Of a DNA stretch of 43,827 nt, positions 17,625 to 20,929 are shown one piece after another. Origin of the DNA: a virus; IMG/VR virus record IMGVR_UViG_3300023118_000014, positions 1 through 43,827 of that record. One strand, given 5' to 3'. The stretch's first letter is position 1; each line of letters starts with the position of its first letter. Both the position numbers and the translations under genes were made by a program. Below the pieces are notes generated by a model. It searched no databases and was not told the DNA's origin. It worked only from the letters and a program-made list of their open reading frames with translations.

Positions 17625-17893
17625 ATCGAAACCACCCCTCGCTCTACGGCCCATGCCCAACGAGGGTCATCGGCATCCGAAATGCGCTTGATGCTACGCT
17701 CCCGCGCTTTCTCCGCGTCCGTGAGCTTCCGGCCAATCTTGTGGCTGACGACTATCTTGCCGTCGCTTGCGCGGCGGCGTGCATATGTCGGCTGTAGACC
17801 GTATTCCACGCACATGGCCGCTGCCCTCTCCTGGTCAACCAGGTAGACCTCCAGGATCTTCGCGCGCTGCTCAGGTGTGATCTTTCTCCTCAT
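17621..17893 (-). CDS. hypothetical protein, 90 aa
   Basis: Basic protein with MRRKITPEQRAKILEVYLVDQERAAAMCVEYGLQPTYARRRAS, an HTH-like arrangement (helix, turn, CxEYGL recognition helix). A conserved-looking ending follows: ISDADDPRWAWAVERGVV. Coupled by ATGA overlap to gcrA upstream and to the 63-residue gene downstream. It may be another small regulator; no named family is certain. Confidence 0.65.
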   Translation of the reverse strand: MRRKITPEQRAKILEVYLVDQERAAAMCVEYGLQPTYARRRASDGKIVVSHKIGRKLTDAEKARERSIKRISDADDPRWAWAVERGVVSI

Positions 17894-18384
17894 GCTGCCA
17901 CAGCCTCTTTCGGGGCATAAACGGCAAGGCGCTCAGAAATGGTGCCCTTGCCCTTAGATTGAATAGTGTGGGCTTCGCAGTAGGGAGCGCTGGTCGTGGG
18001 ACAGCCACAGAACGTGAACGGGCCATCACCATAGGGCCAGCGGCAGGTGATATTGTTCAGCCGCGCCAGCGGAATGTGCAGCGGTTGTGCAACGACATCT
18101 TCAATTTCGACGTGCTCCGGCGGCAGGGTATCCTTGTCATAAGCGCCCCAGCGCGTGGCGAAGATGCTGACCTTCTGCTTTTTGGCGCGGGGGCGCGGCG
18201 AACGCTTTGTTGGCTGGAATCCGAAATCGTTCTTCGACTTGATCCCCATACGAAACATTTTGCCGCAGACGGCATTTCGGGTAATTCCGCCAAGCTCATT
18301 CGCGATCTGCGAGCACGACAAGCCTTGCTCGACATACTTCTTGAGAGCGGAAACGCGGTCATCAGTCCAAGAAATCAGCGTCAT
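17890..18384 (-). CDS. gcrA: GcrA-family cell-cycle regulator
   Basis: 164 residues with the GcrA HTH at the N-terminus: WTDDRVSALKKYVEQGLSCSQIANELGGITRNAVCGKMFRMGIK (family W---R---LK-L---GLS-SQIA-ELGG-TRNAV-GK--R-GL). A basic linker (SPRPRAKKQK) follows. The C-terminal zinc-type part has CRWPYGDGPFTFCGCPTTSAPYCEAH (C-WP-GDP---FCG-----YC--H). GcrA in Caulobacter works with sigma70 and CcrM methylation at GANTC sites. A phage copy at the head of the early operon could redirect host RNA polymerase or mimic cell-cycle timing. It is good evidence for an alphaproteobacterial host. Confidence 0.92.
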   Translation of the reverse strand: MTLISWTDDRVSALKKYVEQGLSCSQIANELGGITRNAVCGKMFRMGIKSKNDFGFQPTKRSPRPRAKKQKVSIFATRWGAYDKDTLPPEHVEIEDVVAQPLHIPLARLNNITCRWPYGDGPFTFCGCPTTSAPYCEAHTIQSKGKGTISERLAVYAPKEAVAA

Positions 18385-19167: not shown

Positions 19168-19892
19168 TTGTCATCTCCATCGCGTCGCAGCCAGCGCAGC
19201 TCAGGCACACCGAAATAGCCATGTTCGATAACGAGCCAGCAGTAGTCCATCTTGCCGCCGCCGGGTTTTTCGCCGGCAAGGATCGTGTACCCAGGCGGCA
19301 TGGAGGGGCGCGGCGTCATCAGCCAGACGCGGCGCAGCGGAAGCGTTTTGAGCCAGTGCGCTGCATTGAGGCGAGCAACAGGGAAAACAAGCGCCACTTT
19401 GCGACGCGCCACGATGAATGCGTTCAGCGCGAACAGGTCAGCGATGTTGAAAGGCGGATTGCAAACGATGTTGTCGTACTGCGTTTCAGCGTCCGACAAG
19501 AAGTCATGCGGTGTCTTGGTGCTATCCCAGCCGCGGTTGACAAGATCAGAGCCGAACGCATGATGCCCTTGCTTGAGCGCGCAATTTCTGGGCGGTGTGG
19601 TCAAATATTCCCATTGCAAAGTGCGAGGGAAATTATGGCCACGTTCCAGTCGAGCGACCGACCGTTCATTGATACTTACGGGATCACCGATGTTTACTGC
19701 ACAAACGCGTGCATCGAAAATGCCGGCGGCGGGAATATCCGCATCGTGCTCTTCATCGAAAAGGAGGGCCGCCCCATCGCGGTCGATTGCGTCGTCATGC
19801 CAACCAGCAGCGCATGCGTCGTGGGCAAGGCGATTGCCGGGGCCGGCTTCGATATCGAGCATCCGGTCGGATGGGGGGAGGCGCCGTGTCAT
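19164..19892 (-). CDS. class I SAM methyltransferase lacking motif I (degenerate), start uncertain
   Basis: Residues near the C-terminus are clear phage methyltransferase: HHAFGSDLVNRGW (motif II region), YDNIVCNPPFNIADLF (the NPPF catalytic motif IV), VALVFPVARLNAAHWL, RRVWLMTPRPSMPPG and DYCWLVIEHGYFGVPELRWL. The expected SAM-binding motif I (WEPACGxG) is absent; the stretch WEYLTTPPRN-CALKQ leads directly into motif II, as if ~30 codons were deleted. The frame is open to an ATG at 19892 that overlaps the Cro-like stop as ATGA, but that N-terminal part is antisense to a plausible plus-strand gene (19635-19895). A TTG at 19619 is an alternative start. Probably inactive or an accessory protein. 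Confidence 0.55.
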   Translation of the reverse strand: MTRRLPPSDRMLDIEAGPGNRLAHDACAAGWHDDAIDRDGAALLFDEEHDADIPAAGIFDARVCAVNIGDPVSINERSVARLERGHNFPRTLQWEYLTTPPRNCALKQGHHAFGSDLVNRGWDSTKTPHDFLSDAETQYDNIVCNPPFNIADLFALNAFIVARRKVALVFPVARLNAAHWLKTLPLRRVWLMTPRPSMPPGYTILAGEKPGGGKMDYCWLVIEHGYFGVPELRWLRRDGDDK

Positions 19893-19895
19893 TGA
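19635..19895 (+). CDS. hypothetical protein, 86 aa, antisense to the methyltransferase N-terminus
   Basis: The ATG at 19635 has SD GAGGG 6 bases upstream. The protein reads as a compact fold: MATFQSSDRPFIDTYGITDVYCTN, then GGGNIRIVLFIEKEGRPIAVDCVVMPTSSACV with alternating hydrophobic strands and an MP-turn. I associate this with small phage proteins of the type I-DTY---L--IE--G---R-------VV--VVMP-----. It converges on the Cro-like gene with a 7-base overlap. The minus-strand frame over the same bases looks less protein-like, but both cannot be excluded. Confidence 0.5.
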   Translation: MATFQSSDRPFIDTYGITDVYCTNACIENAGGGNIRIVLFIEKEGRPIAVDCVVMPTSSACVVGKAIAGAGFDIEHPVGWGEAPCH

Positions 19896-20110
19896 GCGGC
19901 GACCTTTTGTTTTGTCGAAAACAGCGAAGCGAGGTCCGGTCGCAGGTCGCACGGGGCGATCCCGGTGATGCGCTCGATTTCGCTGATTTCCCCGAAGGGC
20001 ACCTTTTTTTTATTCCAGCGCGAGACAGTCGCCTTGTTGACCCCAAGCTCACGCGCAAGGCCGGAAAGCGTCTGTCCGCGGTTCTTCAAAAGGGTGGCTA
20101 GGTTGCTCAT
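19889..20110 (-). CDS. Cro/YdaS-like repressor, 73 aa
   Basis: I start at the ATG at 20110 (MSNLATLLKNRG); the longer frame to 20146 would run through the promoter and operator. The HTH is LSGLARELGVNKATVSRWNKKKVP, and the tail IERITGIAPCDLRPDLA has the I-R-ATGI-R-DLRPDL ending typical of YdaS/Cro proteins in phages of alpha- and gammaproteobacteria. It begins the minus-strand lytic operon. A promoter TTGACG-17-AACTAT places transcription start at or next to the ATG, so the message is probably leaderless. Its -10 is covered by an operator-like site, consistent with control by the repressor at 20206. Confidence 0.82.
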   Translation of the reverse strand: MSNLATLLKNRGQTLSGLARELGVNKATVSRWNKKKVPFGEISEIERITGIAPCDLRPDLASLFSTKQKVAAQ

Positions 20111-20117
20111 AACGGAG

Positions 20118-20146
20118 ATAGTTGCACAACTCACAACCATCGTCAA
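20118..20146 (-). promoter_or_regulatory. promoter of the Cro-like gene
   Basis: Minus strand TTGACG (20146-20141), 17 bases, AACTAT (20123-20118). Transcription would start about at 20110, the ATG itself. The operator-like GTTGCACAAC at 20121-20130 covers the -10. Confidence 0.65.
20121..20130. promoter_or_regulatory. operator-like site O1
   Basis: GTTG-CA-CAAC, a palindrome with flanking A/T (TAGTTGCACAACTC). It overlaps the -10 of the leftward promoter. Its centre is 34 bases from O2. Confidence 0.62.
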
Positions 20147-20154
20147 GTAGCTCG

Positions 20155-20164
20155 GTTGCGCAAC
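20155..20164. promoter_or_regulatory. operator-like site O2
   Basis: GTTG-CG-CAAC, fully palindromic, between the leftward promoter and the start of the repressor gene at 20206. With O1 it gives a pair about three helical turns apart, suited to cooperative binding. Confidence 0.62.
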
Positions 20165-20193
20165 TCGCTAACGCCTTCGGGGTGCCCGGTTGT

Positions 20194-20199
20194 TAAAGT
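20194..20199 (+). promoter_or_regulatory. -10-like box of the CI-like gene (leaderless)
   Basis: TAAAGT ends six bases before the ATG at 20206, matching the boxes before 5845 and 31747. No SD lies between it and the ATG. A clear -35 is not visible, which is common for a promoter activated by its own repressor. Confidence 0.45.
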
Positions 20200-20205
20200 C
20201 GCCCT

Positions 20206-20547
20206 ATGAAAAAACCAGAGCAAATACACCGCAGTAAGCAACCTCGCCGACCCCATTTCATTGAGGAGTGGGCGGAGAAACGGAACTTCGCCTCTCAGGC
20301 GGATTTGGTAAAAGCTCTCGGCGCAGATAAGAGCTTGGTGTCGCGCTGGTACGACGGGGCCTCTCCGGGCCGGGAATGGCAGGAGAAGCTGCGTGCTCTG
20401 TTCCACATCGAGGACGAGCGCGGCGTGTTCTTGCACCCTGACGACGATTGGCTGACCAGGTTCTTTATGAACCGCCAACCGGAAGAAATCGCCCGAATCA
20501 AGCAGACGCTCGAAAGCGCCTTCCCTATCAAGAAAACCGCATCATAG
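20206..20547 (+). CDS. CI-like XRE-family repressor, 113 aa
   Basis: Divergent from the Cro-like gene. The N-terminal part has HFIEEWAEKRNFASQADLVKALGADKSLVSRWYDGASPGREWQEKLRALFHIED, an XRE helix-turn-helix (ADLVKALGADKSLVSRW) of the form found in short repressors of alphaproteobacterial phages. The C-terminus (DDWLTRFFMNRQPEEIARIKQTLESAF) is a short helical dimerisation region rather than a LexA-type protease domain, so induction would not be by self-cleavage; an antirepressor is more likely. It is flanked by two pairs of operator-like sites. The CI role is inferred from position and divergence. Confidence 0.8.
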   Translation: MKKPEQIHRSKQPRRPHFIEEWAEKRNFASQADLVKALGADKSLVSRWYDGASPGREWQEKLRALFHIEDERGVFLHPDDDWLTRFFMNRQPEEIARIKQTLESAFPIKKTAS

Positions 20548-20597
20548 TACCATATTGCGCGCCATAGGCCATTATTCCCACAAAAAATAAGTTGCAA

Positions 20598-20607
20598 GTT
20601 GCCCAAC
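20598..20607. promoter_or_regulatory. operator-like site O3
   Basis: GTTG-CC-CAAC inside AAGTTGCCCAACTT, 7-base arms counting flanks. It lies upstream of the rightward promoter. A further half-site GTTG at 20591 precedes it. Confidence 0.6.
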
Positions 20608-20615
20608 TTGCCTAT

Positions 20616-20644
20616 TGCGATGTGTTGCGACTTGTGCAACTATT
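20616..20644 (+). promoter_or_regulatory. rightward promoter
   Basis: TTGCGA (20616-20621), 17 bases, AACTAT (20639-20644). The stretch TTGTGCAACTAT(T)CTCC is nearly identical to the leftward promoter region at 20130-20114, so the two promoters are duplicated in opposite orientation on either side of the repressor gene. Confidence 0.62.
20631..20640. promoter_or_regulatory. operator-like site O4
   Basis: CTTG-TG-CAAC, one mismatch to GTTGNNCAAC, overlapping the -10 (AACTAT) of the rightward promoter just as O1 overlaps the leftward one. Its centre is 33 bases from O3. Confidence 0.58.
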
Positions 20645-20668
20645 CTCCCACGAACACGGGAGCGCGAC

Positions 20669-20929
20669 ATGGCCGCACGCTGGACCAGCCTTCAGAAGAC
20701 CGACACCCACCACGTCTTCGCCACCACGCATAGCCTCCGACTGTCTGATACGTGGTCGTGGATCTCGGAAGCCGTTGCCAGCGAATTCGAATGCTCGCCC
20801 GACGATCTAGGCATGGTGGACAACGAGGACGGCGATTTCGTCGTGCTGAACGGGAAGATGATTGTCGAGGTCCATCCCTGTCGGATGGTTAACGCGCCCC
20901 GTGCGCATCTGCAGATGGCGGCGGAGTAG
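20669..20929 (+). CDS. hypothetical protein, 86 aa
   Basis: The first gene behind the rightward promoter. SD GGGAG lies 6-7 bases before the ATG; the frame is open to 20615 but that part overlaps the promoter. The sequence reads ARWTSLQKTDTHHVFATTHSLRLSDTWSWISEAVASEFECSPDDLGMVD then EVHPCRMVN. It is acidic and soluble, with no recognised domain. It may be an early lysogeny or immunity protein by position. Confidence 0.62.
   Translation: MAARWTSLQKTDTHHVFATTHSLRLSDTWSWISEAVASEFECSPDDLGMVDNEDGDFVVLNGKMIVEVHPCRMVNAPRAHLQMAAE

Follow-up and report, generated by a model that had tools for sequence, protein, structure and literature searches.

A candidate lysogeny switch with operators inside both outward promoters, and a possible translation lock, in a family of alphaproteobacterial temperate phages

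In phage lambda, the repressor gene is flanked by outward promoters bearing 17-bp operators, the Cro gene is divergent, and an operator lies near the repressor promoter. A comparable layout occurs in the immC region of the rhizobial phage 16-3 (NC_011103), where the C repressor gene is placed between two operator pairs (OL1/OL2 and OR1/OR2) on two outward promoters and an operator, annotated OL2, lies inside the PL spacer. Operators of the 16-3 or lambda type have been sought without success in prophages of S. meliloti (PMC12429752). A different layer of control is known from the I-TevI gene of phage T4, where transcripts that begin upstream fold into a hairpin over the ribosome site, whereas transcripts made from the promoter of I-TevI itself do not (PMC2988022).

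Here we analyzed a 43,827-nt stretch of DNA from a virus record (hereafter the window). The source of the window is evidently a temperate alphaproteobacterial phage, judging by its genes for a GcrA-like protein, an ERF annealing protein, a YqaJ nuclease and a tyrosine integrase. The window resembles lambda in its 17-bp operators over outward promoters, its flanked repressor gene, its divergent Cro-like gene and an operator close to the repressor promoter; it differs in having two operators per side about 34 bp apart, compared with three about 24 bp apart in lambda, and its repressor of about 113 aa does not carry a LexA-type cleavage domain, unlike lambda CI. The arrangement of repressor gene, operator pairs and outward promoters is the one found in 16-3, and the presence of an operator within a promoter spacer and an occurrence in rhizobial phages are common to 16-3 and the window's family. 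In contrast, the 16-3 operators are of the form ACAA-N4/N6-TTG(T/A), 12-14 bp long with centres 17 and 26 bp apart, and no Cro-like HTH gene is annotated as its first divergent gene; the motif GTTG-N9-CAAC described below is absent from the 16-3 immunity region. The 16-3 repressor (annotated CDS, 264 codons) was unmatched in a tblastn search with the window's repressor, although 16-3 was in the searched collection. Because the repressor has no detectable homologue in 16-3 and the operators differ, the window's switch is not a member of the 16-3 family, but it would work like one. The operator arrangement is thus of a known kind; what is new is the corrected operator, the co-variation of repressor residue 47 with it, and the possible read-through lock.

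The control region and its two regulators

The features of the control region are listed in Table 1. The initial annotation had described it as mirror-image pairs of GTTG-NN-CAAC sites around the repressor gene, and these sites were recovered as described: three exact matches at 20121-20130 (GTTGCACAAC), 20155-20164 (GTTGCGCAAC) and 20598-20607 (GTTGCCCAAC), and a fourth with one mismatch at 20631-20640 (CTTGTGCAAC), spaced 34 bp apart on the left and 33 bp on the right. The whole window holds only four exact matches, three of them inside 487 bp; tolerating one mismatch raises the count to 31, compared with 16 expected. Each outer site overlaps the AACTAT -10 box of an outward promoter, with 3 bp common to operator and -10 box. 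Both outward promoters (TTGACG-17-AACTAT leftward and TTGCGA-17-AACTAT rightward) are good predictions, and a 20-bp inverted repeat (20118-20137 and 20624-20643, 90% complementary) joins the two outer regions. The description as two equal pairs held only for the right side, which carries a full tandem pair; on the left there is one full site and one weak site, so that the predicted mirror image is approximate. The far half of the weak left site overlaps a conserved element, GCTAACG (20168-20174), which many relatives carry upstream of the repressor start at an almost constant distance and which may serve as a weak -35 box for a repressor promoter needing activation.

Table 1. Features of the control region, in window coordinates
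Feature	Position	Strand	Sequence and basis
Cro-like HTH gene, 73 aa, first in the leftward operon	19889..20110	-	Pfam matches to YdaS_toxin, HTH_26 and P22_Cro
Leftward -10 box	20118..20123	-	AACTAT; 3 bp common with operator; sequence and relatives
Left operator 1	20121..20137	-	GTTGTGAGTTGTGCAAC; in spacer of leftward promoter; GTTG-N9-CAAC family comparison
Leftward -35 box	20141..20146	-	TTGACG; sequence; position conserved in relatives
Left operator 2, degenerate	20155..20171	-	TTAGCGAGTTGCGCAAC; 34 bp from operator 1; core 6/8 positions
Candidate repressor -10 box	20193..20198	+	TTAAAG; 7 nt before ATG; sequence and inference
CI-like repressor gene, 113 aa, XRE-type HTH	20206..20547	+	ORF; about 80 relatives; AlphaFold; helix-operator co-variation
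Right operator 2	20591..20607	+	GTTGCAAGTTGCCCAAC; GTTG-N9-CAAC; second site common in relatives
Rightward -35 box	20615..20620	+	TTGCGA; sequence and relatives
Right operator 1	20624..20640	+	GTTGCGACTTGTGCAAC; in spacer of rightward promoter
Rightward -10 box	20638..20643	+	AACTAT; 3 bp common with operator; predicted start A20650 from -10 geometry
Inverted repeat, 5' arm	20645..20649	+	CTCCC; just upstream of predicted start A20650
Inverted repeat, 3' arm, Shine-Dalgarno of first rightward gene	20658..20662	+	GGGAG; pairs with CTCCC
First rightward gene, 86 aa, proposed lock target	20669..20929	+	ORF; ATG at 20669 with Shine-Dalgarno

An AlphaFold model of the repressor (mean pLDDT 82) places an HTH at residues 31-49, followed by three short C-terminal helices; the recognition helix comprises residues 42-49, including R47, within the motif DKSxVSRW. 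Members of the repressor family matched the Pfam domains HTH_31 (52/63) and HTH_3 (49/63), with the window's own copy falling below threshold; together with the HTH in the model, these matches identify an XRE or Cro/CI-type fold. Searches of solved structures by sequence gave weak HTH matches only, and a fold search with the model returned generic HTH proteins, none with an E-value below 0.001. A domain search found no S24 peptidase or LexA-type cleavage domain in the 113-aa protein. Since the repressor is short, ends in helices and has no LexA-type protease, prophage induction is likely to proceed by an antirepressor rather than by cleavage. We propose that the repressor mRNA is leaderless. 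The Cro-like HTH gene is present in nearly all relatives and probably starts at 20110 rather than at a TTG at 20146. Its start lies 10 or 11 nt past the operator in 50/66 relatives, that is, 7-8 nt past the -10 box, and because of this short distance its mRNA is probably leaderless as well.

A GcrA-like cell-cycle regulator (17890-18384; Pfam GcrA, E 2e-30) is also encoded by the window, and GcrA lies near the switch in the Pseudanabaena phage Pam5 too. Such a phage-borne regulator may link phage genes with the cell cycle of the host.

A 17-bp operator shared by the repressor family

A tblastn search with the window's repressor matched five phage records, and relatives about 50% identical (46-51%) were found in Rhizobium phage vB_RleM_PPF1, Pam5 and the Microcystis phages Mwe-JY07 and Mwe-JY25. 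These phages have the repressor family and the operators of the window but different operator middles. PPF1 differs further in that its rightward promoter lies about 860 bp from the repressor. The recorded hosts of Pam5, Mwe-JY07 and Mwe-JY25 (L001, L003 and L004) are cyanobacteria and their repressor region is of the alphaproteobacterial type; the natural host may be an alphaproteobacterium associated with cyanobacteria. Single-protein scans of viral contigs with either regulator gave no matches, and an alignment was required: alignment-based scans contributed 61 viral contigs together with 16 loci from bacterial genomes, the majority of these in Rhizobiales, plus some others, giving about 80 repressor relatives. 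A comparison of the control region with phage records at the DNA level gave no match. Operators were counted in 54 non-redundant loci, to which 12 more diverged loci were added later.

To define the operator, GTTG-Nk-CAAC was counted at every gap from k = 0 to 24 around the repressor gene in the 54 loci, the search reaching 260 bp on its upstream side and 1200 bp on its downstream side. This analysis revealed a single favored gap. GTTG-N9-CAAC was found upstream in 45/54 loci and downstream in 42/54 (shuffle means 0.22 and 0.79, respectively), and no other gap exceeded 17 loci. The 12 diverged loci gave the same result, with the operator present on the right in 12/12 and on the left in 11/12. 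The conserved operator is therefore a 17-bp palindrome, GTTGY-N7-RCAAC, with a variable middle between GTTGC and GCAAC ends whose letters are 79-98% constant. The expectation that the four sites would be conserved in relatives thus held for this longer unit and failed for GTTG-NN-CAAC, which was rejected as the operator: its inner GTTG is variable and a gap of 2 occurred in only 16 and 17 of the 54 loci, since some operator middles carry a third GTTG. No description of GTTG-N9-CAAC operators was found in the literature.

On both outward promoters the operator forms the spacer, starting 3 bp past the -35 hexamer and contributing its last three bases as the first three of the -10 box. In most loci 67-71 bp separate the left operator from the repressor start. 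A second right site with at least 7/8 core positions was found at -32 to -35 in 33/45 relatives, compared with 2/45 in a control window. On the left, an offset of -34 was the top secondary position (51 loci), and the site there is degenerate, reaching at least 7/8 core positions in 1/51 loci and 6/8 in 18/51, the window included. A third operator, centred near the repressor's own start codon, was exact in 17/51 loci, mainly in PPF1-like phages, and is at most half present in the window. Such full operators on the start codon were seen at L029:3990-4020 and similarly in L002, L035, L036 and L038; the first repressor residues (for example MSN, encoded by ATG AGC AAC) are in these cases partly set by an operator half-site. 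Taken together, an HTH repressor gene is flanked by operators on outward promoters, and from sequence comparison the family, which is uncharacterized, has the immunity layout of lambda and 16-3.

The likely reader of the operators and the likeness of the two sides

We next compared the variable operator middles. The left and right middle 7 bp were 0.78 identical within a phage compared with 0.47 between phages, and 0 of 2000 permutations reached 0.78; because the operators were picked blind to the middle, this match is not an effect of selection. Rare half-site letters also recurred on both sides of one phage, such as GATG in L031 and GGTG in L057. The earlier proposal that one regulator system acts on both outward operons by the same means is in good agreement with these data, the same 17-bp operator lying in both spacers throughout the family and the two sides co-varying phage by phage. 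Evidence on the identity of the regulator came from the recognition helix. All seven loci with the substitution R47K had a GTTT, GTGT or complementary AAAC half-site, whereas altered half-sites were found in 3/64 arginine-47 loci, all three of them weak picks; the loci were collected through repressor similarity and share ancestry, and this association is only partly corrected for kinship. In a tree built with residue 47 masked, K47 required three changes, of which well-supported branches force at least two; two origins are solid, and the case of L073 depends on a weaker site. A regression of operator similarity on repressor subregions was unspecific, in that residues 51-75 and the Cro-like protein scored and the recognition helix alone did not, and the residue-47 test therefore carries the argument. 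This co-variation, which is indirect, is the best evidence that the 20206-family repressor itself contacts operator position 4, and residue 47 and position 4 likely form one repressor-base contact.

These data bear on three other accounts of the sites. The palindromes might be chance or coding coincidences, as one exact match (18084) lies inside the GcrA-like gene and single-mismatch matches are spread over the window; throughout the family, diverged loci included, the longer motif is conserved and sits at fixed positions in the promoters, which refutes chance and leaves this account a negligible probability. It is also improbable that the sites are read by the Cro-like protein alone or by a host factor, with the 20206 protein not the main binder. 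The Cro-like recognition helix is similar (K-x-x-V-S-R-W), and similarity of the operator middles correlates with Cro-like similarity too, but K47 in the 20206 family tracks the half-site changes in several clades while the Cro-like helix in L044 is unchanged, and a host factor would not explain operator middles specific to each phage. The Cro-like protein likely binds the same sites as the repressor. A further claim of the initial annotation traces the two control regions to a duplication with inversion about the repressor gene; their likeness would then be one of simple shared descent, and the 20-bp inverted repeat and the identical promoter geometry on both sides throughout the family speak for it. 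However, the likeness ends at the operator. The six bases before it were 0.37 identical between the two sides of a phage and 0.36 between phages, and the seven bases after the -10 box 0.29 and 0.27, so that neither flank showed an excess; no phage with mirrored flanks was seen among the relatives compared. In addition, the left-right identity of the middles (0.78) exceeded the left-left identity (0.62) of phages with 55-70% identical repressors. We consider shared descent by duplication an unlikely explanation; an ancient duplication may have occurred but is neither shown nor needed for the present likeness. Because the likeness stops at the operator edges and exceeds that between moderately related phages, the most fitting interpretation is ongoing co-adaptation to one shared binder: the left and right operators would be alike since both serve one protein and change along with it.

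The paired sites are thus very probably docking points for the phage's own repressor on the two promoters flanking its gene, and we consider it probable, with some confidence, that the region is a lysogeny switch in which the 113-aa repressor acts on 17-bp operators in the spacers of both outward lytic promoters. Repressor bound to GTTGY-N7-RCAAC inside these spacers would exclude RNA polymerase from the leftward Cro-like operon and the rightward small-gene operon, with the Cro-like protein probably competing for the same operators. The tandem pair on the right, 33 bp apart, would suit cooperative binding, and on the left a weak second operator lies 34 bp inward of operator 1. In relatives with a third operator the repressor probably also regulates itself, since that operator covers its own start codon.

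An inverted repeat at the rightward promoter

The CTCC that follows the -10 box had been taken as common to both sides. It was not conserved on both sides; on the right it belongs to one arm of a separate inverted repeat (20645-20669), which ties the rightward start region to the Shine-Dalgarno of the first gene and covaries between phages. In most loci a short segment right after the rightward -10 box is complementary to the Shine-Dalgarno region. The window pairs CTCCC with GGGAG, and relatives pair CTCCATCG with CGATGGAG (L018), TATCCCCGAC with GTCGGGGATA (L147) and CTCTCCCG with CGGGAGAG (L149); loci added later, such as L162 and L188, have the same complementary arms. The longest helix formed by a phage's own arms averaged 5.72 bp (40 loci), compared with 4.24 bp (SD 0.15, highest 4.73) when arms were swapped between phages. 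Loci with the promoter no more than 600 bp away from the repressor gene had a helix of at least 5 bp in 27/32 cases (12.6 expected); beyond 600 bp the signal was weak, at 3/8 loci (1.4 expected). The feature is missing or weak in phages such as the PPF1-like group, whose rightward promoter and repressor gene are widely separated. A first held-out set gave a weak result (at least 5 bp in 5/9 loci, 3.0 expected) and a second, of newly fetched loci, a clear one (8/10). A family search with the 86-aa first rightward protein gave no match.

The effect of the repeat would depend on where transcription starts. The 5' arm occupies approximately bases 3-12 after the operator, its first base typically lying 3-7 nt after it. 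Predicted transcription starts such as A20650 are based on the -10 boxes and on the nearly constant spacing of the Cro-like ATG; the normal distance from -10 box to start puts initiation at about base 10-11 after the operator, and RNA from the promoter itself would thus be without most of the 5' arm. Opening of the Shine-Dalgarno was computed to require 7.3 kcal/mol when the RNA reads through and 3.0 when it starts at the promoter, and shuffling the arm gave 4.4; the corresponding values for the window were 7.4, 3.3 and 4.9 kcal/mol. No terminator-like site was found between the repressor gene and the rightward promoter in the window or in 42/53 loci. RNA from the rightward promoter would therefore be translatable, and read-through RNA from the repressor gene would fold and hide its Shine-Dalgarno. 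We give an even chance to the reading that this conserved fold-back blocks translation of stray read-through messages. The T4 I-TevI gene likewise has an inverted repeat that hides a Shine-Dalgarno; there the lock sets early and late timing in a lytic phage, whereas here it would part the lysogenic repressor transcript from the lytic operon. It is possible, though we think it the less probable reading, that the hairpin is instead an ordinary 5'-end stem-loop of the promoter's own mRNA, serving stability or translational control. Covariation shows that the arms really pair, and such pairing would function in any RNA that carries both, which speaks for this explanation. However, the 5' arm directly follows the -10 box, which leaves too little room for transcription to start ahead of it, and the near-fixed ATG at 10-11 nt on the left supports starts at such a distance.

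Two further features of the rightward operon were observed in relatives. In L060, L061, L064, L065 and L081 the first rightward gene encodes a 42-aa protein with a hydrophobic N-terminus and the conserved ending F[DE][VT]CH[YF]A[LF]NR. In PPF1-like phages (L002:3680-3800) the rightward promoter drives a long, strongly structured-looking leader, and no Shine-Dalgarno or Shine-Dalgarno lock lies nearby.

The literature yielded no characterized operators for this repressor family, and the present analysis defines an operator code for the repressors of many rhizobial and other alphaproteobacterial phages. With residue 47 and operator position 4 varying together, it could become possible to predict immunity groups from sequence. 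The chances are balanced that, across a widespread alphaproteobacterial family of temperate phages, repressor control of the rightward lytic operon is reinforced by a translation lock based on promoter choice; if real, the lock would show how leaky transcripts go untranslated in a prophage whose lytic operon immediately follows the repressor gene.
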